Positions 1 to 29,672 of a stretch of 64,000 bases of DNA are shown here, piece after piece. Below the pieces are notes generated by a model. The model saw only the letters and a list, made by a program, of their open reading frames with translations, was not told where the DNA came from and did no database searches. A program made the position numbers and the translations under genes. Source of the stretch: Dokdonia pacifica (lineage in GTDB: Bacteria; Bacteroidota; Bacteroidia; Flavobacteriales; Flavobacteriaceae); contig NZ_FZNY01000002.1 in assembly GCF_900188275.1 (NCBI RefSeq), forward strand, positions 372,001 through 436,000, in the 5' to 3' direction. Every line of letters starts with the position of its first letter. Within the stretch, counting starts at the first letter, position 1.

Positions 1-1001
1 TTATTAGGCATGATACCAACGCCAGATCTATTGTAAACGTTAGGAGAACCATAATTGAACTTATCATGCCTTTTGCCATTATTTAATAATAAAGGACCAG
101 ATTGAGTAGCAAAATTGGGTTTGATTTTTTTATTGATAAAAGTGTTGGTTTCTGAAACAAATACACTGTCATTTTTAGTAAAAAAAATGCCATTTGGTAG
201 CATAAAAAAATTATTATTCGCACTTTTTCCTTTGTTTACATCTTTAATGATACTATCATTTGTAACTAGTAATCCCACTGGAGCTAGATTTCTATCAAAC
301 ATACCTCCATTTGTAATCATTAAAATGTCATTATTACTATTGTTTTGACTTTGTATAAACTTATCAATTGAAACACCTCTCGCTTTGTTTTGTATAGGAT
401 TATCATTGCCATTTGTAATTTTTATTTCCTGTTTAGCAGGATTAGTAATAAAGGCATAATACGTTTCCTTTTTAAAAATAAAAGAGTACTCTCCTTCAGG
501 AAGGCTCTTAACAATTGTTGTCATGTTTTTTCTTGAGGTATTCGCCTTTTCCTTTAGTTTATCAAGCTTAATAAAATCTTTAATTGTTTGTTCTTTTCTA
601 TTTATTAGTAAAATGGTGCTTACCCATTCGTTATAGCAACTATCAAACTCTTTTTTTTGTTTTTTTAAACCCGCTATTACATCTATACTTTTAGAAGAAT
701 CACTAAGTGATTCTGAATTTGATAACACGGTAATGATCTTTTTGCTTAATTCTTTAAGCTTAGTAGTTTTTTCAGTTTTCTTTTTTGTTAGAGATAACAG
801 TTCATTTTCTAAACTTTGTTTGTTATTAAGTTTAAGTTTGCTGCTTAAGATATAATATTGCTCAATCTCAGAGTAAAACTGATCTATTGAAGCTTGTAGT
901 GTTTTACTGTGAGAAGAAGGGCTTGCTGTTAAATCCTTGTTTTGTGCATTTAGTTTTAAAACAAAAAAGAAGCTTATTAAAAGTGTTAATATAGGTTTCA
1001 T
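1..1001 (-). CDS. Phosphodiester glycosidase family protein (NAGPA/DUF2233-like), C-terminus cut by the window edge
   Basis: Reading the minus strand from ATG at 1001 gives 333 uninterrupted codons that continue past base 1. Residues 1-20 form a signal peptide ending LNAQ, so the protein is exported. Residues 25-155 are charged and Lys/Glu/Leu rich, probably coiled coil. From about residue 170 it matches my knowledge of the phosphodiester glycosidase (NAGPA, PF09992/DUF2233) family: ITNGGMFD (229-236), PVGLL (241-245), NFFMLPNGIFF (264-274), ATQSGPLL (298-305) and a final RSGVGI (325-330). Members hydrolyse sugar-phosphodiester bonds, but the substrate here is unknown. The family's last conserved block, usually with an LDGG-type motif, would lie outside the window. 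It starts one base after the stop of the LamG/HYR gene, so the two are surely co-transcribed. Base composition is as AT-rich as the rest of the island. Confidence 0.75.
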   Translation of the reverse strand, partial: MKPILTLLISFFFVLKLNAQNKDLTASPSSHSKTLQASIDQFYSEIEQYYILSSKLKLNNKQSLENELLSLTKKKTEKTTKLKELSKKIITVLSNSESLSDSSKSIDVIAGLKKQKKEFDSCYNEWVSTILLINRKEQTIKDFIKLDKLKEKANTSRKNMTTIVKSLPEGEYSFIFKKETYYAFITNPAKQEIKITNGNDNPIQNKARGVSIDKFIQSQNNSNNDILMITNGGMFDRNLAPVGLLVTNDSIIKDVNKGKSANNNFFMLPNGIFFTKNDSVFVSETNTFINKKIKPNFATQSGPLLLNNGKRHDKFNYGSPNVYNRSGVGIMPN

Positions 1002-1002
1002 G

Positions 1003-2643
1003 TTATTTTAGTATTAGATTAATTGCAGAAGCTATACCTATTTCTGAATCAATGGTATTATTATATACGGGGCTTTTTCGTTTGGATAAGAAATCTTTTC
1101 TGGTAGCCTCTCCTTCATATATTTCTATACTTACAGTATTAAGGCCTTTGGTTCCAGTATTCCACGCTTTTATTGTTAAAAAATTGCTTCCTGTTTTTAA
1201 TTCTATTTTTGCTGTTATTACGTCTTTTTTCTTGTTGTCTTTGTTATATATTTTCTTTTTATGAATAATCTCTTCTGAATTAAAAAATAGAGAAATGATG
1301 TCTCCATCTTCGTATTTATGATCATATAAGAATACAGTGTGAATTTTTTTTGTTAATTCAAAAGAATCTTTTGTAATAATTGAATCTTTAATTATAGGTT
1401 TTGTTGGTTTAGGTTTAGATATGGGAGGTAGTTCTGCAGTTTCTTTTTTAATTTCAATTATTTGTTCACACATTGAGGTATTTCCAGAATCATCGGTAGC
1501 ATAGTAGAATTTATGGTGTTTTCCATAATCTGTAAATAAAGTATCTAATTTTTTTAAGTTGATAGCACTGCAATTATCATAGACTAAAGGCTGTTTTGTA
1601 AATACTTTAACAGGAAGGCTTTTAGCAATAATAACTGTATCTTTTGGGCAATTAATTATAGGAGAAATAGTATCAATAACTTCAATGGTGAATTGACAAA
1701 ATTTGGTTCTATTATTATTGGTTTTTTTTAATACAACTTTGTTTATGCCTACAGGAAATAAAGAACCACTAGGAAGCCCTTTTACTACTGAACTTTTAGA
1801 GTTTACACAGGGACTATTTGATGTAGTTAAATAATCAACCTCTGCGTCACAACTATTTTTTGAGCAATAAACTTTGATATTGTTGGAGCAGGTTATTTCA
1901 TTTGAGAAATCTACATCATTTATTGTATACATCTCATTAATAATTTCTGTTTCAGAAAGCGATCTATTAAATAGTTTTAAATCATCAATAGCACCAACAA
2001 AAAATTCATCGGCTCCAGGAATATCTCTACCTATATACAGAGGAGAAAAATTTGAGTTAAAATTATTGTAGTATTGGAATGACCATACTTTATTTCCATT
2101 AAAATAAACAGATACTATGTTTTGACTACAGACCAATGAAAAATGAAACCATTTATCAGTTTCTATTTTGTGTTTTGCAAAGTCAAAATCGTACTCGGTG
2201 AATTCTGTATTCACAGATACTGTACTTTGATAGTTATTCTGGAAAGCCTGTGCTCTAAAATGAGGGTTTGATGTTGTTTCGTTCAAATCATCTCCCTTAC
2301 AAATTAAGGTAATCCAATGGTCATCATTTGTTGTCTTTGATACTTTTAGCCAGGAAGTAACTGTAAATTCATTTTTAATTTGATTAAAAGCGTCATCATG
2401 TAATACACTTAAGTAATTACTGCCATTGAATTCTAAAGCGTTGCATGCTAGTCCATTTCTACCTTCTGTAAATGATGTATTTCCAAATTTTTCAACAGTA
2501 AGGTTATAACTACTTTTATTTTCAACATCATGATTAAAAGTAAAGTGTAGTAGTAAATCTTTTTGTCCAAAAGAAAAACTTGTTATAGAAACGCTAATAA
2601 GCGTCAATATTTTGGCTAATAATATGTTGCTTTTTTTCAACAT
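1003..2643 (-). CDS. Secreted LamG-like / HYR-like domain protein
   Basis: The 546-residue protein has a signal peptide (residues 1-27, ending SFSFGQ). About residues 30-240 form a concanavalin-like LamG module: LLLHFTFN start, FTVTSWLKVS, KWFHFSLVCS, VYFNGNKVWSF, then FVGAIDDLKLFNRSLSETEI. A Cys-rich stretch follows (CSNNIKVYCSKNSC). About residues 325-405 resemble a HYR (hyalin repeat) domain: ISPIINCPKDTVI at the start and YYATDDSGNTSMCEQIIEI at the end. The last 130 residues are unassigned. LamG and HYR modules usually bind glycans or proteins at the cell surface, so this may be the targeting partner of the adjacent phosphodiester glycosidases. That role is inference. It lies 9 bases downstream of the 293-residue gene and 1 base upstream of the next gene, in one operon. 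Confidence 0.7.
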   Translation of the reverse strand: MLKKSNILLAKILTLISVSITSFSFGQKDLLLHFTFNHDVENKSSYNLTVEKFGNTSFTEGRNGLACNALEFNGSNYLSVLHDDAFNQIKNEFTVTSWLKVSKTTNDDHWITLICKGDDLNETTSNPHFRAQAFQNNYQSTVSVNTEFTEYDFDFAKHKIETDKWFHFSLVCSQNIVSVYFNGNKVWSFQYYNNFNSNFSPLYIGRDIPGADEFFVGAIDDLKLFNRSLSETEIINEMYTINDVDFSNEITCSNNIKVYCSKNSCDAEVDYLTTSNSPCVNSKSSVVKGLPSGSLFPVGINKVVLKKTNNNRTKFCQFTIEVIDTISPIINCPKDTVIIAKSLPVKVFTKQPLVYDNCSAINLKKLDTLFTDYGKHHKFYYATDDSGNTSMCEQIIEIKKETAELPPISKPKPTKPIIKDSIITKDSFELTKKIHTVFLYDHKYEDGDIISLFFNSEEIIHKKKIYNKDNKKKDVITAKIELKTGSNFLTIKAWNTGTKGLNTVSIEIYEGEATRKDFLSKRKSPVYNNTIDSEIGIASAINLILK

Positions 2644-2652
2644 AAAGAAGTT

Positions 2653-3534
2653 TTATTGGTAGTAATAAACTAACAAATTGATAGCCTTGTCTATAGGTAT
2701 GGTTCCTTTTATTCGTTCATCAACAGTGCCATTTTCATCAAATAGTTTAAAGGTGTTTTGAGCTCCGGTATCTAGATTGATCATCCAAATCACTTCCATA
2801 TCTTTAAAACCATTTAAAAAACTAAGAACTTTTTTACTCCCTTCATATAAAGTGGTATGTTCTTCAGAATGCACAATACAATGAACTACATTTTTATCCT
2901 CATCATACCCTACAGCTAAAAATCTTCTTTCACGTGATTTAGGACTTGAATTATAAGGTGATATTTTTAATATATCATTGTAAGCTAATAAATGTGTTTG
3001 AAATACAGTTGCTTCATTTTCTTCACACCATTCCAAAAACTTTGATAAATGATAAGAGTTTCCTTTTAAGTCTAATGGTATACCAGAAATAGAACCGCCT
3101 TGAACTTTTAGGTTTTTATCTTCAAGGTTGGTGGCTACTACGCCTCCTGTAGCATAAACAATAACAAGTCCGTCAAAATCAGCAATATTCTTGTTTACAA
3201 CCACGCCGTTATCAACAGTTAAACCTACAGGTAATGCAATTATGGGGTCATATTTACTCATATATGTGCCACTTGTTACACAAATAAGGTTTTTATCTTG
3301 TGACCAATTTAAAAAACGATTAGGCACAGATGTGCCATTATAATCTTTTGCAGCAAAATATTTTGCTTTAATTTTTTTTCCACTCAAGCCTCTGTCCATA
3401 TATATCACTTTATAAGGATAGTTTGCATCAGTTACAGATGATACTTTAACATGTTGAGGGTTGTAAGTTTGAGCGTCTAGATGTAAAGAAAAAATAGAAC
3501 ATATACCCATTGTGAATAAAATTTTTCTAATCAT
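2653..3534 (-). CDS. Exported protein, probably a divergent phosphodiester-glycosidase-like enzyme
   Basis: The 293-residue protein has a signal peptide (1-21, ending HLDAQ). The order of its blocks parallels the NAGPA/DUF2233 fold of the downstream neighbour: LICVTSGTYM (where TNGGMF stands in the classical family), LPVGLTVDNGVVVN, then VFQTHLLAYND (a QS/QT-type strand), RRFLAVGYDEDKNVVH, and near the C-terminus VIWMINLDTGAQNTF, where family members carry LDGGGS. The double Gly is thus replaced by Thr-Gly, so activity may be changed or lost. I assign it by pattern only, and a profile search could overturn that. Its ATG overlaps the end of the upstream membrane-protein gene by 8 bases, so translation is probably coupled. 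Confidence 0.5.
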   Translation of the reverse strand: MIRKILFTMGICSIFSLHLDAQTYNPQHVKVSSVTDANYPYKVIYMDRGLSGKKIKAKYFAAKDYNGTSVPNRFLNWSQDKNLICVTSGTYMSKYDPIIALPVGLTVDNGVVVNKNIADFDGLVIVYATGGVVATNLEDKNLKVQGGSISGIPLDLKGNSYHLSKFLEWCEENEATVFQTHLLAYNDILKISPYNSSPKSRERRFLAVGYDEDKNVVHCIVHSEEHTTLYEGSKKVLSFLNGFKDMEVIWMINLDTGAQNTFKLFDENGTVDERIKGTIPIDKAINLLVYYYQ

Positions 3535-4312
3535 TGCTTTTAATTTTTAATAGTGATTTTAAATTGTGGCTTTTTAAATACTTTATTCCAAAAAAACTTA
3601 ATAAGGACAAGGAAGCGGCTATAAGTAGTATAAAAATCTTACATATCCATGGTGTACTATACCAAAATCGTTTAAGCATATAAAGCCATCTTTGATCTAT
3701 GATATTCAGAAGTACTTTTTCAAATGTAGAATTACCAGTATTAGGAAAATACTTTTTTTGTATACAACGTTGTGCTAAATAGCGGTATTTAAAACCATAT
3801 TTAGAGTTTGGTTGTTTTTTTGCCTCTGCCGATAAGTGGTTAGTAATTTGGTTGTACCAATATATTTCAATTGATTCTTTTACACTATTATCTTTAAAAT
3901 CTAGTTTGTCTACCCAATTAGCAATTTGATTTATAGTATCTAGATTTGTTGACCAAATTTTAGGGTAGAGTTCTGATGTTAGTGCTTTTATAAAAACATT
4001 ATTCGACAAAAAATCATTTTTAGTTATTTCTTGCAGATTAATGAGGTCATGATTTAGATCTTTTGATTCTTGTAAATTTGCTTTTTCTAAGTAAACTTTA
4101 AAAGGGAAGTTATCTAATGCTAATGTGTCATAATTGCTAAGATTTAATAAAAGTGAAGTATCATTTACTTTACCTTGTGGAAATAAAGTTATGTTTTTGA
4201 ACTCATCATTATCAACCGTAATGACTTTGATAATTAAATACAAAAAAAATATTAGAAATAATGTGTTAAACATAAGACTTATAGTAAACTTGTAATCAAT
4301 AGATTTATACAT
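3527..4312 (-). CDS. Membrane protein of unknown function with N- and C-terminal TM segments
   Basis: This 261-residue protein matches no family I recognise. It has a hydrophobic helix at about residues 10-31 (rich in Leu/Ile/Phe), a hydrophilic middle of about 180 residues, a second helix at about residues 222-242 (CKIFILLIAASLSLLSFFG) and a basic tail (KYLKSHNLKSLLKIKSND). The basic tail suggests a cytoplasmic C-terminus and so a periplasmic middle domain. The middle holds aromatic-rich patches (YWYNQIT, GFKYRYLAQRC). It is the first clear gene of the island operon, and its stop codon lies inside the start of the 293-residue gene. It could anchor or organise the secreted enzymes encoded downstream; this is a guess from the neighbours. 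Confidence 0.6.
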   Translation of the reverse strand: MYKSIDYKFTISLMFNTLFLIFFLYLIIKVITVDNDEFKNITLFPQGKVNDTSLLLNLSNYDTLALDNFPFKVYLEKANLQESKDLNHDLINLQEITKNDFLSNNVFIKALTSELYPKIWSTNLDTINQIANWVDKLDFKDNSVKESIEIYWYNQITNHLSAEAKKQPNSKYGFKYRYLAQRCIQKKYFPNTGNSTFEKVLLNIIDQRWLYMLKRFWYSTPWICKIFILLIAASLSLLSFFGIKYLKSHNLKSLLKIKSND

Positions 4313-4315
4313 TTA

Positions 4316-4504
4316 TTATGTATTATAGTTATAAATGAGTTCAAGGTAAGAGTCGCAGCATCTCCAGCTACAGGAGCATTTCTTTGTCCGTTTACAGTGG
4401 TTTATAGCAAGAACAAGATGATAATTAGATTTTTTATTTGTTAATACGAAAAAAACAGTAACAAAGCTTTCTTGACAAGGAGAAATCCGATAGTAGTATT
4501 CCAT
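4316..4504 (-). CDS. Small Cys-rich ORF of unknown function (62 aa)
   Basis: An ATG-started ORF ends 3 bases before the ATG of the 261-residue membrane protein and would be the first gene of the island operon. It encodes 7 cysteines, clustered in the second half (CKRTKKCSCSWRCC), after a mildly hydrophobic stretch. I see no convincing ribosome binding site (the upstream bases are pyrimidine-rich) and no family match. It could be a short real gene, a leader peptide, or chance. The close, same-strand spacing is the only positive evidence. Confidence 0.3.
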   Translation of the reverse strand: MEYYYRISPCQESFVTVFFVLTNKKSNYHLVLAINHCKRTKKCSCSWRCCDSYLELIYNYNT

Positions 4505-4876
4505 ACGAAAAGGAAACTGGGCTAATTTCTAGAGTGTTTTTGTGATCATACATATTGTTACGAGTTATTATTTTTAAGAGAAATAAAAATTTTTATACTA
4601 GATATTTTTATTTGATAAAATTATTTATACGCATCCTTTGATTATACCACAATTCGCACATAGTCAAACAATTACTATATTTTATATGCCTCAAATTTAT
4701 TAAGATAAAATGTTCCTCCCTTACGGGAAACCGTAAATACTATCTAAATGAATAGTAAATATTGTAGATTATTACTTTTATATAGTTAATATCCGTTGTA
4801 CATTTTGATTTAAAAGTAAAAAAGTTATTCATCTTGCTGATAATCAGTAATTTGTTTTAACTGAAAAACATTTACA
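4505..4876. other. Intergenic region between the island operon and the IS element
   Basis: This 372-base AT-rich stretch has no ORF I can support. It holds the putative upstream region of the leftward operon, a perfect dyad at 4721-4736 (separate entry) and, from 4791, the left end of the IS982-like element with its short non-coding leader. Confidence 0.5.
4721..4736. promoter_or_regulatory. Perfect dyad TTACGG-GAAA-CCGTAA
   Basis: A 6-bp perfect inverted repeat is separated by GAAA, inside a short GC-richer patch (TCCCTTACGGGAAACCGTAA) in otherwise very AT-rich DNA. It could be an operator for the leftward operon (217 bases upstream of the 62-aa ORF) or, if transcribed, a GNRA-capped hairpin. 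The regulator is not known to me. Confidence 0.35.
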
Positions 4877-5775
4877 ATGAACAACTTAACTGCAAATCAC
4901 AAAAGAATATTAGAAGTATTAAGAGAAATATCAAAAGAACAGCTTTTACCCTATCAGCGGCGTCAACCAAGATTGAGTGATCTTGAATTGATCTGTTTGA
5001 GCCTAATTGCCGAATTTATGGGGATGGATAGTGAAAATGATTTATTTAGAAAACTTCCCGAGAATATATCATCAAAAATAGAGCGAAGTGTTTACAATAG
5101 ACCCAGAAGGAGGCTTATAGGCAACCTTGATAGAATTCGATTGAAATTAGCCTCGCACTTTAATGAATTCGAGAATTACTTTGTTGTTGATAGTACGCCA
5201 TTGGAGGTGTGTAAACTTTCTATAAGTTTGAGGTCTGAAATTTGCAAAGAGACTGTTTAAGCTAGTCCCGATAAGAGGTATTGCGTCGCACAGAACTCAT
5301 ATTACTATGGTTACAAACTTCATGCTATTTGTTCTGTAGAAGGTGTTTTCGAGCTATTGACCTAAGTCTAGCTTCGGTTCACGACATCAACTATCTTAAA
5401 GATATTAAAATGCAAATAAATGATTGCACATTAATTGGAGACCGAGGATACTTATCAGCAGAAATACAACTAAACTTATTTGAAATTTGCAATATCAAGT
5501 TGAATGCACCAATGAGAAACAATCAAAAGTAATACAAACAACAATCCTATGTCTTCAGAATGAAGCACAAGAGAATCGAAACCTTGTCATCATAACTGTG
5601 TGATCAGTTTATAATGAGACGCAACTAGCAACTATGCAAAGTCATTTGATGGGTTTAAAACAAGAATACTATCTAAAATAACAGTCTTAACAACCATTAA
5701 ATATACAAACAAGTTCATTTTTAATAGAAATATAAGCAATATTAAAATTAGTATTATTTAAAATGCACAACGGGT
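4791..5775 (+). mobile_element. Degenerate IS982-family insertion sequence (about 985 bp)
   Basis: The broken transposase lies between imperfect terminal inverted repeats. The left end reads ATCCGTTGTACATTTT. The right end, read on the minus strand, gives ACCCGTTGTGCATTTT, which matches with two differences. The ACCCGTTGTGCA-type terminus and the length near 1 kb are as I know them for IS982. No clear target-site duplication is visible (left flank AGTTAAT, right flank TAAATAA), consistent with an old insertion or rearranged flanks. Confidence 0.7.
4877..5761 (+). pseudogene. IS982-family transposase, interrupted by stops and frameshifts
   Basis: Translation starts MNNLTANHKRILEVLRE and contains the IS982-type DDE core: FVVDSTPLEVCK (first Asp), then YYYGYKLHAICSVEGVF, DLSLASVHDINYL, LIGDRGYLSAEIQ (second Asp), NAPMRNNQK and RIETL (Glu region). 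The frame is broken by a TAA at 5258-5260, by a shift near 5355 that moves the rest to another frame, and by a further stop at about 5530. After that only fragments such as FDGFKTRILSKI and TTIKYINKFIFNRNIS are recognisable. A normal transposase of this family is about 290-300 residues in one frame, so this copy should be inactive unless served in trans. Confidence 0.85.
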
Positions 5776-5962
5776 TAAATAAACAAAATTGACACAAAAA
5801 CTAATGTCAAACAAAGATAATTATCTATAAATATGATAAGAGATAATGAAATTATCTAACGTAGGGTTTTGCATGCTATCATATGTTATTAAATACTATT
5901 ATTTGTAGTTTGACGTTGTTTAAAATGCTTGATAATTAATGTGTTGAATAATTCGCTTTACA
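5776..5962. other. Terminal segment of the island, non-coding
   Basis: These AT-rich 187 bases lie between the IS right end and the tRNA remnant and have no ORF. Inverted GTCAAAC (5806-5812) and GTTTGAC (5908-5914) copies flank the middle. They could be integrase or excisionase arm sites, but this rests on position alone. Confidence 0.35.
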
Positions 5963-6006
5963 GTTCATAACCCGGAGGTCACGAGTTCAATTCTCGTTCT
6001 CGCTAC
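5963..6006 (+). other. attR-like remnant: 3' part of a tRNA-Met(CAT) gene
   Basis: From the anticodon loop onward this is a tRNA. The loop is TTCATAA with anticodon CAT (5966-5968), the 3' anticodon strand is CCCGG, the variable loop AGGTC, and the T arm ACGAG-TTCAATT-CTCGT pairs perfectly. Then come acceptor strand TCTCGCT, discriminator A and one C. The 5' half is missing: the bases before the loop (TACAG) cannot pair with CCCGG, and no D arm or AGCGAGA/CGCGAGA 5' acceptor strand exists in the preceding 40 bases. Three C after the loop point to the initiator tRNA. A 3' tRNA stub ending a foreign-looking segment is the standard product of integration into a tRNA gene. The intact copy would lie left of the window. 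Confidence 0.8.
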
Positions 6007-6014
6007 TTAAAATG

Positions 6015-6047
6015 AAGCAGTTACATATATTTTGTAGCTGCTTTTTT
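6015..6047 (+). terminator. Rho-independent terminator of the tRNA locus
   Basis: The stem AGCAGTTACA / TGTAGCTGCT (one G-U or mismatch) encloses an AT loop and is followed by TTTTTTA. It lies 9 bases after the tRNA stub and was probably the native tRNA terminator. Confidence 0.75.
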
Positions 6048-6353
6048 ATTCTCCTATAAATAGATCTGACTATTTCCTACTTTATAATGGGTCATAAATT
6101 TCTTCCTAAAAGCCTTTTTAGATTACCATTACTCAACTTACTCTTCTAAATATACCCGAAAGACAAATTCATATAATATGACAACACCTATACATTATTT
6201 TTATAATAAGTACCAAAAGATCACTTTCTCATCTTAAATCATTATGCTACTTAGAAAACCATAATAAACACTATATTATCCATGTCTAATACTATTTATG
6301 CCAATATAGACATAACATAGTATTAGAATTGTAAAATTCTGTACTTTTAAAGT
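6048..6353. other. Intergenic region upstream of the hydroxyproline genes
   Basis: These 306 AT-rich bases have no supportable ORF or RNA. They should contain the promoter of the following operon. Two near-identical motifs, CATGTCTAATACTATTTATG and the inverted ATAACATAGTATTAGA, face each other around 6280-6325 and could be an operator; this is weak. Confidence 0.35.
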
Positions 6354-8376: not shown

Positions 8377-8430
8377 TCCGTTTTCTATGGTATGTCATTG
8401 AGTACGTTGAAAATTGAGAAAATTATTTTA

Positions 8431-8450
8431 TACGCTTTCGCGAAAGCGTA
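8431..8450. repeat. Palindrome TACGCTTTCGCGAAAGCGTA
   Basis: A full 20-bp perfect palindrome lies 18 bases upstream of the GH63 start codon. It is one of ten exact copies of the core CTTTCGCGAAAG in the window. Just upstream, TGTCATTGAGTACGTTGAAA (8393-8412) resembles another dispersed flavobacterial repeat type (GTCATTGAGCG..GTCGAAA). Confidence 0.85.
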
Positions 8451-8467
8451 TACAGACACATTAAAAG

Positions 8468-15725: not shown

Positions 15726-15780
15726 TCACAAATACTTATATCTAACTTTCAGAAGTGGTTTAAAAGTAATGTTTCAAGTA

Positions 15781-15800
15781 TACGCTTTCGCGAAAGCGTA
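15781..15800. repeat. Palindrome TACGCTTTCGCGAAAGCGTA
   Basis: This is a perfect 20-bp copy, extended by TA on both sides to 24 bp. It lies 38 bases beyond the haloperoxidase stop codon, where it could act as a 3' transcript hairpin. Confidence 0.85.
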
Positions 15801-15837
15801 TATAACATGGGCGCTATTAAGGGGTGAAAAGCGATTA

Positions 15838-17220
15838 TTAGTTTGTAAGATCAAAATCATTGACAGCATCAGAAATCTCATAGCCCAAACGAATTCCTTC
15901 ATCACTATCTATTTGAACGTGTACGCCTAGAGGCACTCGAGAATAGGCGTTTTCTTGTGCCATTTCTGAAAAAGAACTGTACGTACGTGGATTTCCATTA
16001 AACTCTACTCTTCCATCGTGACTTCTATCTGTAAAACCGATAGCATCACCTCCGAAAAATTGAGCAAAAACACCAGCCGACACTCCTGCAAATGTCGCAT
16101 GACCCGATGGGTAGCTTGGAAATGCAGGGTTAGGTGAATCAATAAATAGTGATAGATTCGTATCAAAATCTGCATTCATATTTGCTCTTATATACGTACT
16201 AGGACGTTGGGTATCATACGTGTACTTATCATCCCAAGCAGAAACTGCCGCATCATTTATCGCAAAACCAAGTCTAAGTAAAAGCTCTAATGTCTGCGCA
16301 TATTCTAAATCTTCCTGTGCAATCAATTGATTTGCAATAGAAAATTGTCTTCCCGGAGGACTCATCATCAAGCTTTCTACATCGTCAGACCAAAACTCAG
16401 CAATCCATAAATCTTCATTATCCTCTTCTCTTGCTACCGTTGCAATATCATTTACCTCTTCCATGGCTATATAATATTCACTTGTTGTGTCTGTACTATA
16501 GTCATATGCAGGAGGGATACTCGTAGTTTCATCTGGAGAGATCACAAATGTTCTCACACTATTCCAATAAGGAAACCATGCACTTTCTCCTTCTGCTGCT
16601 ATCCATAAACCATCACCTACAGGTGCTATGTAAGACGCTGGGTTTGGGTCTAGAATCTGAGTCTCAGCATCTGTATCACTTTGACTATATGCGATCACAC
16701 GTTCTGCAACATACGTACCCCATTCTATAGAATTTTCAATTTCAGATTCAGACAAATCTGTCGATAACTCACTTGCCATACTTTCTTGTAAAATGGCTAT
16801 AGCAGCTTTTTCATTGTTTGATACACTAAACATAAAGTGATCAAAAACCAAAGCATAACAAGTGTTAAGTGCTAGATCTACGTCTACATTGTCTTCACGC
16901 TGATTCTCATTAATAGTAAATCCTTGTAATCTATCCTCATTTGAAGTATATCCATCCATATCAGCTACAGCGGTTTCATACCCTGCTAAATGAATATAAG
17001 CAAGTGCTCTTGCAGTAGAATTAGGTCTCATAGCATCTGTATAGCGGTCTAAATCTAGCCAAAGATCATTCCAGTCTGTAATCAATTGTGTGGTTGCATT
17101 TGTTACTACAGGTGTATCTACAACAGTTGTGTCTTGAGCATCGTCATCGTTTGCACAGGATTGTAATAACACTACAGTCACTGCTATGGCAAATATTATT
17201 TTAAAATATGGTCGTTTCAT
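15838..17220 (-). CDS. Vanadium-dependent haloperoxidase-like lipoprotein (PAP2 superfamily)
   Basis: I choose ATG 17220 (MKRPYFKI) because it gives a clean lipoprotein signal ending VVLLQSCAND; an upstream in-frame ATG at 17265 would bury it. The roughly 460-residue protein has the vanadium haloperoxidase/PAP2 residues near its C-terminus: Lys and Arg in WDDKYTYDTQRPSTYIR, PSYPSGHATFAGVSAG, then SRVPLGVHVQIDSDEGIRLG with the Arg and the covalent-type His. Members oxidise halides with H2O2 or act as phosphatases, and the sequence does not tell which. As a lipoprotein it should face the periplasm or the outside. A 12-bp palindrome lies about 70 bases upstream of the start. Confidence 0.8.
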   Translation of the reverse strand: MKRPYFKIIFAIAVTVVLLQSCANDDDAQDTTVVDTPVVTNATTQLITDWNDLWLDLDRYTDAMRPNSTARALAYIHLAGYETAVADMDGYTSNEDRLQGFTINENQREDNVDVDLALNTCYALVFDHFMFSVSNNEKAAIAILQESMASELSTDLSESEIENSIEWGTYVAERVIAYSQSDTDAETQILDPNPASYIAPVGDGLWIAAEGESAWFPYWNSVRTFVISPDETTSIPPAYDYSTDTTSEYYIAMEEVNDIATVAREEDNEDLWIAEFWSDDVESLMMSPPGRQFSIANQLIAQEDLEYAQTLELLLRLGFAINDAAVSAWDDKYTYDTQRPSTYIRANMNADFDTNLSLFIDSPNPAFPSYPSGHATFAGVSAGVFAQFFGGDAIGFTDRSHDGRVEFNGNPRTYSSFSEMAQENAYSRVPLGVHVQIDSDEGIRLGYEISDAVNDFDLTN

Positions 17221-20363: not shown

Positions 20364-21830
20364 TTACACTCTAGGCAAATCACTCTCATCTTTTAGTGGT
20401 AATGTAGAACTACCCATTAAATATGTATCTACGTGATGTGCCGCTTGTCTTCCTTCGGAAATTGCCCATACAATAAGGGATTGGCCTCTACGCATGTCTC
20501 CAGCTGTAAAAACACCAGAAACATTGGTTTTATAATCTTTAGTAGTAGCTTGAATATTTGTTCTCCCATCCATCGTTACTCCAAACTGTTCGGCTAGGGT
20601 TTTCTCTGCTCCTGTAAAACCAAGTGCTAATAAAGCTAGATCGCACTTCCATTCTTTTTCGGTGTTGGGTACTTCTTTTAATTGTGGACGCTCTCCATCT
20701 TTAAAAATCCATTCTACCTGAGTAGTTTTTAATGCTTTTAGATTGCCTTTTGTATCTCCTATAAACTCTTTAGTAGAAATACTAAAAAAACGCTCTACGC
20801 CTTCTTGATGCGAAGACGTTGTCTTGAGTTTCATAGGCCAATAGGGCCAAGGTTGATGCGCAGGTCTGCCTTCTGTGGGTTTATTTAAAATCTCAAAATT
20901 GGTGACTGATATAGCGCCATGGCGATTAGAGGTTCCAATACAGTCAGATCCCGTATCACCGCCACCAATAACAATGACATGTTTTCCTTGCGCAGTGAGC
21001 ACTTCTTCAAAATCTGAAATGCCATCTACTCGCTGATTGTTTTGTTTTAAGAAATCCATAGCTTGATGCACGCCTTTTAGATCGGCGCCATCAATAGGTA
21101 AATTTCTCTTTACAGTAGCGCCGCCGCATAATACCACCGCATCAAATTCGTTTTGCAACTCACTAGCTTTTATTGTTTTGCCAACTTCTATATTGGTTTT
21201 AAAAATAATTCCTTCTTCTTCTAAGATTTTAATACGTCTATCAATAATGTGTTTTTCTAATTTAAAATCTGGAATACCGTAACGTAATAATCCACCTACT
21301 TTTGCATCCCGTTCAAAAACAGTAATAAGATGTCCCGCCCGATTGAGTTGTTGAGCTGCGGCAAGTCCTGCGGGTCCTGATCCTATAATGGCAACTGTTT
21401 TACCGGTTCTTTGTTTCGGAGGGTTTGGGGTGATCCACGCTTTCGCGAAAGCGGTTTCTACAATATTTTTTTCAATATTCTCAATAGTAACGGGGTCTTC
21501 ATTAATGCCTAACACACATGCTTCTTCACAAGGTGCAGGACATAAACGTCCCGTAAACTCAGGAAAATTATTGGTTTTATGTAAAATCTGTGCAGCTTCT
21601 TCCCACTTACCCTTATACACCTTATCATTAAAATCAGGAATAAAATTACCCAAAGGACATCCGCTATGACAAAACGGAATACCACAATCCATACAACGCG
21701 CTCCTTGATCTTGAAGTTTTGAGGGTTCTAATGGAATGGTAAATTCCTTATAATTTTTGATACGTTCTTTAGGAGATTCATAGGCCTCTTCTTGACGTTC
21801 ATATTCTAAAAATCCTGTGATCTTTCCCAT
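20364..21830 (-). CDS. gltD: Glutamate synthase small subunit
   Basis: The 488-residue protein has an N-terminal Fe-S domain with the cysteine set [17 protein letters not shown] and [12 protein letters not shown], and an FAD/NADPH domain with [18 protein letters not shown] and [23 protein letters not shown] late [17 protein letters not shown] block completes it. It passes electrons from NAD(P)H to the large subunit for 2-oxoglutarate amination with glutamine. It lies 3 bases after gltB, as its operon partner. A copy of the CTTTCGCGAAAG palindrome falls inside the coding region and is read as TAFAKAW, between the Fe-S and FAD domains, a linker that tolerates insertion. Confidence 0.95.
21438..21453. 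repeat. CGCTTTCGCGAAAGCG palindrome inside gltD
   Basis: A 16-bp perfect palindrome lies in the coding sequence and is translated as AFAKA in the linker after the Fe-S domain. Confidence 0.85.
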
Positions 21831-21833
21831 GTT

Positions 21834-24800
21834 TTATGCTATTTGTAATTGTTCTTGTTCTAATCGTAACAAGGCTTTTCTATATTCTTCCGGAAGTACT
21901 TTCTTAAACATTGGTAAATAGTTTTCCCAACCTTTAAGAATTCGTTTTGCTAATGGACTATCGGTAGCTTGATAATGCTTTTTAAGTAAGTCTCTCAATT
22001 GCAATTCATCATCTTCTATAGTTACTGGACCAATATTTAAATCTGTTGCATTACAATGTTGTGAAAAGGTATTCTTTTCATCAAAAATATAAGCAATACC
22101 ACCACTCATACCGGCTCCAAAATTGCGTCCTACTTCTCCTAAAATAACTGCAATACCCCCTGTCATATACTCACAGCCATGATCTCCAATTCCTTCTACA
22201 ACGGCTTTGGCCCCTGAATTACGAACACAAAAACGTTCTCCTGCCTTTCCATTTATATATACTTCACCAGATGTAGCGCCATACAAGGTCACATTTCCGG
22301 TAATAATATTATCTTCTGGGACAATGGTACAGGCTTCTGGAACTTTGATTACTAATGTTGCGCCAGAAAGTCCTTTTCCTAAATAATCATTGGTATTACC
22401 ATGAACTGTCATACGTAATCCTTTAGTAGCAAAAGCTCCAAAACTCTGCCCAGCTGAACCTTCAAAATCAATATCAATAGTATCTTCTGGTAATCCTTGT
22501 GCGCCATATATTTTTGAAATTTCATTACTCACAATAGCACCTACGGCACGGTTGATATTAGTAATAGGCAAACGTAAATGTGTTTTTTGTCTTCTAAATA
22601 ATGCTTGGTGTGCTTGCTTAATAATTTTAAAGTCCAAATGTGTTTCTAAGTCATGCTCCTGCTGTGTAGTATTATAAAAAGCTACTTCATCAGAAACGGA
22701 TACTTTATGTAAGATAGGTGTCAGGTCTATACCTGATGCTTTATAATGATCAATGGCTTTATTGCGATTTAGTTTCTGTACTTGGCCCACCATTTCGTTA
22801 ACGGTTCTAAAACCAAGCTTCGCCATAATCTCACGCAGTTCTTGCGCAACGAAATACATATAATTTACAACGTGCTCTGGCCTCCCTTTAAATTTCTTGC
22901 GTAATTCTGGGTTTTGAGTAGCAATCCCTACTGGACATGTATTTAAGTGACATGCGCGCATCATGATACATCCTGATGCAACTAAAGGTGCTGTAGCAAA
23001 TCCAAATTCTTCGGCACCTAATAAACAAGCAATAGCTACATCTCTACCTGTTTTAAGTTGGCCATCACATTCTAAGACAATACGATTACGTAAATTATTC
23101 ATGACCAATGTTTGTTGTGCTTCTGCAATACCAAGTTCCCAAGGCAATCCAGCATGTCTGAGTGATGTTAAAGGAGAAGCTCCTGTTCCTCCATCAAAAC
23201 CAGAAATTAAGACCACATCTGCTTTTGCTTTTACAACACCCGCTGCAATAGTCCCGACACCTACTTCTGAGACTAATTTTACATTTACACGTGCCTCTCT
23301 ATTGGCTGCTTTTACATCATATATTAGTTGTGATAAATCTTCTATCGAATAAATATCATGATGTGGAGGTGGGGATATGAGCCCCACATAGGGGGTAGAA
23401 TTTCTAGTTTTTGCAATCTCATGATTTACTTTTGGACCTGGAAGCTGCCCTCCTTCACCAGGTTTTGCTCCTTGTGCAATTTTTATTTGAATCTCACTTG
23501 CATTGGTAAGATAATTTGAGGTTACACCAAATCGTCCAGAAGCTACTTGTTTGATCGCCGAGTTTTTCCAATCTCCTTGTGCACTTTTATAAAAACGCTC
23601 TTGATTCTCCCCTCCTTCTCCTGAATTACTTTTCCCTCCAATTCGATTCATGGCTACAGCAAGGTTTTCATGAGCTTCTTTACTAATAGACCCATACGAC
23701 ATTGCTCCTGTTTTAAAGCGTTTTACAATGGCTGTCCAAGGTTCTACTTCATCTAGAGGAATGGGATCAAATTGATCAAATTCTAATAACCCACGAATGG
23801 TCATAAGACTTTTAGATTGATCATTAATTAATTGCGAGTATTCTTTAAATGTAGCTGCTTTATTAGTTCTTACAGATTCCTGAAGTTTTGCTACGGTTAA
23901 CGGATTAAACATATGCTTTTCTTGTCCGCGACGCCATCTATAATCTCCTCCTATTTCTATATCGACATAAGCATCATTTGTTTGAAAAGCTTTTTTATGT
24001 TGTTTTACAATTTCTTGTTCTATTTCTCGTAATCCTATTCCTTCTATACGCGTAGGTGTATTAGGAAAATACTTAGCAACCGTCTTTGCATTAATTCCTA
24101 TACATTCAAACAATTGGGAACCTCTATACGAGTTTAATGTAGAGATTCCTATTTTATTCATGACCTTTAGAATTCCTTTTCCTATGGCCTTATTATAATT
24201 TTTAATGGCTGTTAGATATTCAATATCTGTAACATCATTTGCAGAAACTTGCTCTTGTACTATCTCATTAACGATATATGGATTGACAGCACTTGCTCCA
24301 AAGCCAAAAAGTAATGCAAAATGATGTACTTCTCTTGGCTCGGCAGATTCAATGATTAAACTCGTTTGCGAACGTTTTTTTAATTTGTGTAATGCATGAT
24401 TTACAAATGAACAAGCTAGTAATGCAGGAATGGGAGCATGATTATCATCTACATAACGATCAGAAAGAATGATAATATTTGCACCATTCTCTATGGCTTT
24501 TGAAGCTTTAGTAACTAAATTTTCAAGAGCAATTTCAAGTTCATTTAACCCTCTATTCACTTCATATAACATAGAAATAGAAGCTATCTTAAAATTAGGA
24601 TTACTATCATAGTTTCTAATTTTATCTAAATCATGCTTTGAAATAACTGGGTTTTGAATTTTAAGTTTCTTACAATGTGCCGAATTAATATCAAAAAGGT
24701 TTACATCACTTCCTAAAGTAAGACTTATATCGGTGATTAATTCTTCACGAATTCCATCTAATGGTGGATTCGTTACTTGTGCAAATAGTTGTTTAAAGTA

Positions 24801-26333
24801 GTTATAGATTAATTGTGGTTTTTCAGACAATACAGCTATAGGCGCATCACTTCCCATAGATCCTATTGGCTCTTTCCCTAATTGCGCCATAGGGCGAATA
24901 AGTGTATTGATATCTTCTTGGGTATACCCAAATATAATCTTGCGTTTCTTTAACTCAATCTCATTATAAGTAATAGGTCCTTTCTTTGCCGAAATGTCTT
25001 TAAGGTGTACCAAATTTTCATTAAGCCACTTTCTATAAGGATACTTAGAGGCTATTTCTTCTTTGATCTCTTCATCATTGACAATACGTCCCTCATTCAT
25101 ATTGACGAGAAACATTTTTCCTGGTTCTAGACGCCCATGAAATTCAACATTTTCTGGTTTAATATCTACGACTCCTGTTTCTGAAGACATGATGACATTC
25201 CCGTTTTTAGTGACGGTATATCGGGAAGGTCTTAGTCCATTTCTATCCAATACAGCTCCAATATAATTCCCATCTGTAAATGGAATAGATGCGGGACCAT
25301 CCCATGGTTCCATGAGGCAAGAATTATATTCATAAAATGCTCTTTTTGCATCAGACATACGCTCATTCTTCTCCCAAGCCTCTGGAACCAACATCATCAT
25401 AGCTTCTGGCAAAGAACGTCCGGACATCAGGAGTAGTTCTACCACCATATCTAATGTAGCAGAATCTGATTTTCCTCTTAGGATCGTAGGGATAATCTTT
25501 TTAATATCATCACCAAATGCATCACTCTGCATAATTTCTTCACGGGAAAACATTCTAGATACATTACCGCGTAATGTATTAATCTCTCCATTATGACAGA
25601 TATACCTAAATGGCTGCGCTAAATCCCAAGTAGGAAACGTATTTGTAGAAAAACGTTGATGTACTAAAGCTAATCGTGTATCTAACGCAGCATTATAGAG
25701 GTCTAAATAATACCCATTAATGTCTTCAGGTTTTAAAAGACCTTTAAATATGATAATCTTAGTAGAAAGACTTGGGATATAGAAAAATTTAGATTCAGAA
25801 AGTTTAGAATTATAAATAGTATGCTCAGCAATTTTACGAGCAGCAAATAGTTTTAAACTAAATGCACTTTCTGATTGATCATTAGAAGATTTTCCAATAA
25901 ACAATTGTTTTACATATGGCTCAGTTGTTTTAGCGATCTCTCCTAATACATCGCTATTTACTGGTACATCTCTCCATCCTATAAGTTGTAACCCTTGATC
26001 TTTAATGGCAGTCTCTAATACTTCAATACAATAAGCACGTTGATTTTCTTTTCTAGGAAGGAACACATTACTAACTGCATAGTTTCCTATTTCAGGTAAA
26101 TCAAAATCACAAAATATTTTAAAGAACTTATGAGGAATGTCTATCAATATACCAGCTCCATCTCCTGTTTTGCCATCGGCACTTACTGCGCCTCTATGTT
26201 CTAACTTCACTAAAATTTCTAGCGCTTTATGAATAATATCATTAGAACGTTTTCCAGTAAGACTACAAATAAAACCAGCACCACAATTATCATGTTCAAA
26301 CTCTGGTAAGTAAAGGCCTTGTTTCTTTAGCAT
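21834..26333 (-). CDS. gltB: Glutamate synthase large subunit
   Basis: The 1499-residue protein is full length for bacterial GltB. It starts with a 16-residue propeptide (MLKKQGLYLPEFEHDN) before the catalytic Cys17 of the Ntn glutaminase domain (CGAGF). The central domain, the FMN/synthase domain (GRFGVTSNYL, GAKPGEGGQLPG, LISPPPHHDIYSIEDL) and the 3Fe-4S cysteines (CIMMRACHLNTCPVGIA) follow. The C-terminal beta-helix (GNTNDYLGKGLSG, GNVTLYGATSGEVY, NSGAKAVVEGIGDHGCEYMTGG) closes it. It converts 2-oxoglutarate plus glutamine to two glutamates. It is divergent from the porin-PII-Amt operon, linking ammonium uptake with assimilation. Confidence 0.97.
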   Translation of the reverse strand: MLKKQGLYLPEFEHDNCGAGFICSLTGKRSNDIIHKALEILVKLEHRGAVSADGKTGDGAGILIDIPHKFFKIFCDFDLPEIGNYAVSNVFLPRKENQRAYCIEVLETAIKDQGLQLIGWRDVPVNSDVLGEIAKTTEPYVKQLFIGKSSNDQSESAFSLKLFAARKIAEHTIYNSKLSESKFFYIPSLSTKIIIFKGLLKPEDINGYYLDLYNAALDTRLALVHQRFSTNTFPTWDLAQPFRYICHNGEINTLRGNVSRMFSREEIMQSDAFGDDIKKIIPTILRGKSDSATLDMVVELLLMSGRSLPEAMMMLVPEAWEKNERMSDAKRAFYEYNSCLMEPWDGPASIPFTDGNYIGAVLDRNGLRPSRYTVTKNGNVIMSSETGVVDIKPENVEFHGRLEPGKMFLVNMNEGRIVNDEEIKEEIASKYPYRKWLNENLVHLKDISAKKGPITYNEIELKKRKIIFGYTQEDINTLIRPMAQLGKEPIGSMGSDAPIAVLSEKPQLIYNYFKQLFAQVTNPPLDGIREELITDISLTLGSDVNLFDINSAHCKKLKIQNPVISKHDLDKIRNYDSNPNFKIASISMLYEVNRGLNELEIALENLVTKASKAIENGANIIILSDRYVDDNHAPIPALLACSFVNHALHKLKKRSQTSLIIESAEPREVHHFALLFGFGASAVNPYIVNEIVQEQVSANDVTDIEYLTAIKNYNKAIGKGILKVMNKIGISTLNSYRGSQLFECIGINAKTVAKYFPNTPTRIEGIGLREIEQEIVKQHKKAFQTNDAYVDIEIGGDYRWRRGQEKHMFNPLTVAKLQESVRTNKAATFKEYSQLINDQSKSLMTIRGLLEFDQFDPIPLDEVEPWTAIVKRFKTGAMSYGSISKEAHENLAVAMNRIGGKSNSGEGGENQERFYKSAQGDWKNSAIKQVASGRFGVTSNYLTNASEIQIKIAQGAKPGEGGQLPGPKVNHEIAKTRNSTPYVGLISPPPHHDIYSIEDLSQLIYDVKAANREARVNVKLVSEVGVGTIAAGVVKAKADVVLISGFDGGTGASPLTSLRHAGLPWELGIAEAQQTLVMNNLRNRIVLECDGQLKTGRDVAIACLLGAEEFGFATAPLVASGCIMMRACHLNTCPVGIATQNPELRKKFKGRPEHVVNYMYFVAQELREIMAKLGFRTVNEMVGQVQKLNRNKAIDHYKASGIDLTPILHKVSVSDEVAFYNTTQQEHDLETHLDFKIIKQAHQALFRRQKTHLRLPITNINRAVGAIVSNEISKIYGAQGLPEDTIDIDFEGSAGQSFGAFATKGLRMTVHGNTNDYLGKGLSGATLVIKVPEACTIVPEDNIITGNVTLYGATSGEVYINGKAGERFCVRNSGAKAVVEGIGDHGCEYMTGGIAVILGEVGRNFGAGMSGGIAYIFDEKNTFSQHCNATDLNIGPVTIEDDELQLRDLLKKHYQATDSPLAKRILKGWENYLPMFKKVLPEEYRKALLRLEQEQLQIA

Positions 26334-29577: not shown

Positions 29578-29627
29578 ATCTTAATTAACAACTATGATGT
29601 GAAAGTTTGACGAAAAGTATAGATATA

Positions 29628-29647
29628 TACGCTTTCGCGAAAGCGTA
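29628..29647. repeat. Palindrome TACGCTTTCGCGAAAGCGTA
   Basis: A perfect 20-bp copy, extended by TA on each side, lies between the convergent ends of amt and ppc, 26 bases past the ppc stop. Confidence 0.85.
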
Positions 29648-29672
29648 TAGAGCATGTATAAAATACCCTACA

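Follow-up and report, generated by a model that had tools for sequence, protein, structure and literature searches.

A 10-kb genomic island (10K GI) of Riemerella anatipestifer lies at a tRNA-Arg gene with a 53-bp repeat, and its integration and excision have been shown experimentally (PMC6764341). The segment that we describe here resembles it in having an intact tRNA at one end, a repeat of about 50 bp, about 10 kb of cargo, and a host from the Bacteroidota. However, the segment sits in another tRNA gene, lacks an integrase, and has ends that look composite. Islands in other Dokdonia genomes (islands I and II of G014 and those of G011 and G015) share its locus and boundary, and the G015 island also has the same type of right end. 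Their cargo differs from that of our segment. Unlike our segment, island II of G014 and the island of G011 keep a gene for a recombinase of 400 to 403 amino acids by the stub, while G015 keeps one of 456 amino acids by the tRNA. Temperate phages in tRNA-Met (3300041583_000386, 2744054425_000001, and 3300039171_000102) share its apparent crossover base and tRNA 3' half and have their own terminators, but they carry phage genes and integrases, and our segment carries neither. The segment is a further member of a well-known kind, the scar of an island in a tRNA gene, with a few unusual details.

We analyzed a window of 64,000 nucleotides (C19:372001-436000) from the genome of Dokdonia pacifica, which comprises 5.52 Mb in 31 contigs. 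An earlier note, made from the letters of the window, had placed the 3' stub of a tRNA-fMet at 5963-6006. We confirmed the 3' half of a tRNA, but it starts one base later, at 5964, and an exact repeat reaches 6012 (TTCATAACCCGGAGGTCACGAGTTCAATTCTCGTTCTCGCTACTTAAAA, window 5964-6012). ARAGORN found zero tRNAs in the window, and the full-length tRNA fit of Rfam at the stub was spurious, at just 18.1 bits. Thus, the 5' half of the tRNA is absent, as the note had proposed. The assignment to fMet did not hold. The tRNA of the stub starts with G1-U72 and has an A31xC39 mismatch and is therefore an elongator-type CAT tRNA. We rejected fMet as the target, since the initiator gene lies elsewhere (C21:86855), with a C1xU72 mismatch and a GGG/CCC anticodon stem.

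An intact tRNA-Met with an identical 3' end had been predicted to lie beyond base 1. We found it to the left of the window: a tRNA-Met(CAT) gene at C19:368468-368542 contains the identical sequence, and the repeat has a period of 9464 bp. The next-best match to the 49 bp in the genome has three mismatches, there are no other direct repeats of this size within 71 kb, and even a shorter T-arm pattern has a chance expectation of 0 occurrences. The exact repeat, with its intact tRNA on the left, supports reading the stub as an attR-like scar. A rho-independent terminator does follow the stub, as claimed; however, the left copy has a terminator too, and its sequence is unlike the one after the stub. 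The features of the locus are collected in Table 1.

Table 1. Features of the tRNA-Met locus of D. pacifica and copies of its right end (window positions unless a contig is named)
Feature	Position	Strand	Remarks
Left copy of 49-bp repeat	-3500..-3452 (C19:368500-368548)		Within intact tRNA-Met
617-aa ORF	Inserted segment	-	No family (Pfam)
NAGPA-domain protein, 248 aa	Inserted segment, left of base 1	-	Pfam
Inserted segment, part inside window	1..5963	.	Whole segment -3500..5963, 9464 bp
Phosphodiester glycosidase (NAGPA) protein	3..1001	-	400 aa in full (Pfam)
LamG + HYR protein	1003..2643	-	Probably secreted (Pfam)
293-aa ORF	2653..3534	-	No family (Pfam)
261-aa ORF	3527..4312	-	Weak DUF7862 match, below cut-off (Pfam)
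Broken DDE transposase	4877..5532	+	Frameshifted, C terminus missing; IS982 in the earlier note
Conserved island right end, ~105 bp	5858..5963	+	Abuts stub
3' half of elongator-type tRNA-Met(CAT)	5964..6006	+	Anticodon loop, T arm, acceptor 3' strand
Right copy of 49-bp exact direct repeat	5964..6012	+	Putative attR
Rho-independent terminator	6013..6048	+	3' of stub; similar hairpins after tRNA-Met in G013 and G014
gltD/gltB	20364..26333	-	First block in synteny with G014, at 92-97% aa identity; anchors variable region from tRNA-Met to gltD on the right
Strong copies of ~105-bp end	G015 C53; G007 C333, C857, C477; C17:413891-414007 (own genome)		

We then compared the site with that of relatives. 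The gene for a START-like protein on the left adjoins the tRNA in all 20 relatives read, and the DNA 3' of the tRNA differs in most of them. The comparison with an empty site that the earlier note had suggested yielded no clean empty site, as every relative has other DNA after the tRNA. At least four other Dokdonia genomes (G014, G011, G015, and G007) have full-length stubs with an identical starting base, which lies in the anticodon loop (TTCATAACCC). In G014, one lies 24.5 kb and another 54 kb from the tRNA, and a further stub is degenerate; that of G011 lies at +56 kb, and G001 has a degenerate stub. Genes for tyrosine recombinases lie just inside stubs in G014 (403 amino acids) and G011 (400 amino acids), and G015 has one of 456 amino acids directly after the tRNA. 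If site-specific recombination played no part and the tRNA had undergone segmental duplication or gene conversion, this would explain the repeat itself and nothing else. The left edge of similarity falls on one base in all full-length stubs, from several species, and in phages, and beyond the tRNA, similarity is confined to the terminator. We consider duplication or conversion extremely improbable.

We hold it very probable that the stub is the attR of an integrative element whose crossover with the elongator-type tRNA-Met fell in the anticodon loop and that what remains is decayed, probably composite, and without its former integrase. If an element that carries a tRNA 3' half crossed over with the tRNA gene, the tRNA would stay whole at the left end (attL), where the incoming 3' half and terminator would complete it. 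The displaced original 3' half would then be left as the stub at the right end. The integrase would later have decayed away, with genes truncated as well, and the two ends of the segment may stem from two elements.

Phages use the same site. Exact searches of IMG/VR returned eight matching stretches on six contigs. IMGVR_UViG_3300041583_000386 has an intact tRNA-Met with a 407-amino-acid ORF beside it, in the position of an integrase, and a stub at its far end, and in IMGVR_UViG 2744054425_000001 both copies flank the phage. The 14.7-kb contig IMGVR_UViG 3300039171_000102 has the tRNA 3' half, a different terminator of its own, and an adjacent gene for a 414-amino-acid integrase but no intact tRNA, an arrangement that looks like a free attP. 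This attP-like contig supports the view that an element integrating here supplies a tRNA half and a terminator of its own. That would explain why the two terminators flanking our segment differ. These comparisons document that, in Dokdonia and other marine flavobacteria, the elongator tRNA-Met gene is a hotspot where elements integrate repeatedly, common to islands and temperate phages and with tandem arrays.

The segment contains six minus-strand ORFs and a transposase remnant, whose second half matched DDE_Tnp_1 (E=1.4e-4) and DDE_Tnp_1_3, both under the curated cut-off. Its G+C content is 27.9%, against 33.5% in the left flank and 34.3% in the right flank. The genes of the segment are absent from this place in relatives, and the 400-amino-acid NAGPA protein has family relatives at 32 to 42% only. 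The suggestion that the DNA left of the stub is foreign cargo is thus borne out by its composition and its absence from the locus in relatives. Direct repeats of the tRNA 3' end, an intact tRNA at one end only, cargo that is foreign in composition and absent from relatives at the locus, and a locus occupied differently in all relatives read, with no clean empty site, place the segment among tRNA-associated genomic islands. The repeats enclose no phage genes for structure or replication, and PHROGs matched only the LamG protein, with function unknown, which argues against a prophage. Likewise, no relaxase or conjugation genes were found among the ORFs of the island (Pfam for six ORFs, NCBIfam for five), which argues against an integrative and conjugative or mobilizable element. 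A defence function of the cargo was considered on one weak CARF-like match, which we do not believe.

The integrase that had been expected beyond base 1 is missing. In a six-frame search, neither the segment nor the DNA next to it showed a tyrosine recombinase, and the nearest one on C19 is at 562529, about 185 kb away. Searching the segment for a decayed integrase by tblastn with the recombinases of related islands gave chance matches only. With no cognate integrase inside it, the segment does not class as an autonomous integrative element. We infer that an integrase was once present and has since been lost from the segment.

The left end of the segment, directly after the intact tRNA, consists of the leader and the beginning of a porin gene (about 28 codons). 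This end matches the closest relative, G014, beyond its outermost tRNA copy, at 82.5% over about 335 bp. There, the tRNA is followed by a 24.5-kb island, which carries what we take by eye to be a nitrite-reductase-like operon, a stub, a 29.4-kb island ending in the gene for the 403-amino-acid recombinase, and a second stub. A 358-bp piece, the degenerate stub, the leader and truncated porin gene, large genes, and gltDB come next. Thus, what adjoins the tRNA in D. pacifica is the counterpart of the outer flank of the G014 array, suggesting that the common ancestor with G014 had one old element and that G014 later added islands between this element and the tRNA. As separate observations, the region between the G014 island array and gltDB (G014:C3, oriented, 55731-79834) has very large ORFs of 986, 2826, 2056, 1218, and 709 amino acids, in a layout that we would guess to be contractile-injection-like. 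Also, a short palindromic repeat around CGCTTTCGCGAAAGCG is common to intergenic regions (window 8419-8464, 15779-15805, and 29623-29649) and occurs in the left end of the island as well (L005, about 3860-3890).

The right end is of a different type. The approximately 105 bp that abut the stub (AACGTAGGGTTTT..CATGCTAT..) are conserved at five other strong places, and all six of these ends, ours included, abut a tRNA-Met 3' piece. At the ends near tRNA-Ser genes (C17 and C477), this is a short piece only, which resembles the initiator tRNA. In G007 C484 and G015 C51, weak copies are bordered by an inverted repeat rather than by such a piece. A search of 295 genomes gave no strong copies beyond the genus, and the phage collection gave none; the conserved end sequence could help to find further islands. 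The end types of the segment belong with different islands elsewhere, and therefore a single integration fails to explain the whole segment. The whole has the look of an old island that has decayed, is probably composite, and occupies a recurrent hotspot.

A divergent gene for the 456-amino-acid recombinase lies about 160 bp after the tRNA 3' half in G015 and G007 C857, and the order in G007 C857 (end, half, recombinase) is that expected of an attP or a tandem junction. On the basis of association only, the 456-amino-acid recombinase ranks as the best candidate for a partner of the 105-bp end type; it has no close relative in IMG/VR. We rejected a 376-amino-acid XerA-like recombinase with a 119-amino-acid zinc protein as owner of the end, as a clear end was present at 2 of 26 genome loci (G015 C53 and G007 C477), and this recombinase is probably cargo or a neighbor. 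The XerA-like gene and the divergent zinc protein gene form a conserved pair in Dokdonia, Aquimarina, Lacinutrix, and others (L158 122-1694, L149 401-1973, and L163-L182). Several contigs end soon after the 376-amino-acid recombinase, beside the palindrome ATATGTGTACCGGTACACATAT, which might fit an integron-like cassette platform. After the C17 copy of the 105-bp end (C17:413891-414034; L153 17891-18034) comes a 25-bp piece resembling tRNA-Met, about 280 bp ahead of tRNA-Ser(GGA), and there is no integrase. The arrangement in G007 C477 is the same, with an adjacent recombinase module.

If the 105-bp end and a tRNA half sufficed for recombination, an element without an integrase could have moved in trans, with a resident integrase supplying the enzyme. 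This would fit a segment with both repeats and no integrase, as well as island I of G014 (24.5 kb), which also has none between its repeats, and the occurrence of the 105-bp end with quite different cargo. However, the left end is not what this end type leads one to expect, as in G015 and G007 the 456-amino-acid recombinase gene follows the tRNA half. The truncated porin gene moreover shows deletion. Decay is the simpler account of the loss. We therefore regard movement in trans as unlikely and favor an element that had an integrase and lost it.

The DNA to the right of the stub, from about 6.0 to 20.4 kb, is also unlike that of relatives at this place. Foreign DNA may thus extend past the stub. 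The claim that the stub is the right end of an island stands for the attR-like scar but not for the edge of all foreign DNA. The stub could be an internal junction of tandem islands, with the stretch from the stub to gltD as a second, older acquisition whose right scar has decayed. The array of G014, where at least two islands after tRNA-Met, with stubs between, precede unrelated genes and gltDB, offers a precedent, and the 6.0-20.4 kb block is missing entirely from this place in G014. Moreover, the OCD gene right of the stub occurs in one other genome of the genus only (G007), in another context. On the other hand, the G+C content and GC3 of the block are chromosome-like, and a third copy of the tRNA was not found in the window. 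A PAP2 gene similar to the one at 15838 is located close to the tRNA in G016 and partly in G017, so the block may be part ancestral. On balance, we lean against tandem acquisition, while giving it real weight, and keep to an attR left by the element between the repeats.

The tRNA-Met itself varies at this locus. Its T arm has two types, ACGAGTTCAATTCTCGT and GGGGGATCGTGCCCCCC, each with its relatives and replaced as a block. The T loop is either the canonical TTCAANT or ATCGTGC, which is without the usual T54 and A58. We surveyed the locus in 30 genomes (L007-L036) with a tree from two neighboring proteins, on which the types alternate, with about three to five changes and weak nodes. Mobile elements or phages with each type were found, but no genome with two different types. 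Since the T arm is part of the mobile 3' half and phages carry either type, integration may swap T arms. We offer only tentatively the idea that integration remodels a core tRNA between a canonical and a noncanonical T loop. If it is true, mobile elements edit the structure of a core tRNA. Among other observations on tRNA genes, G000:C21:1465982-1477475 (L222) holds a dense array of more than 15 tRNA genes, and a similar array in G007 (C843, L220) lies beside a 454-amino-acid recombinase gene and an excisionase-like gene.
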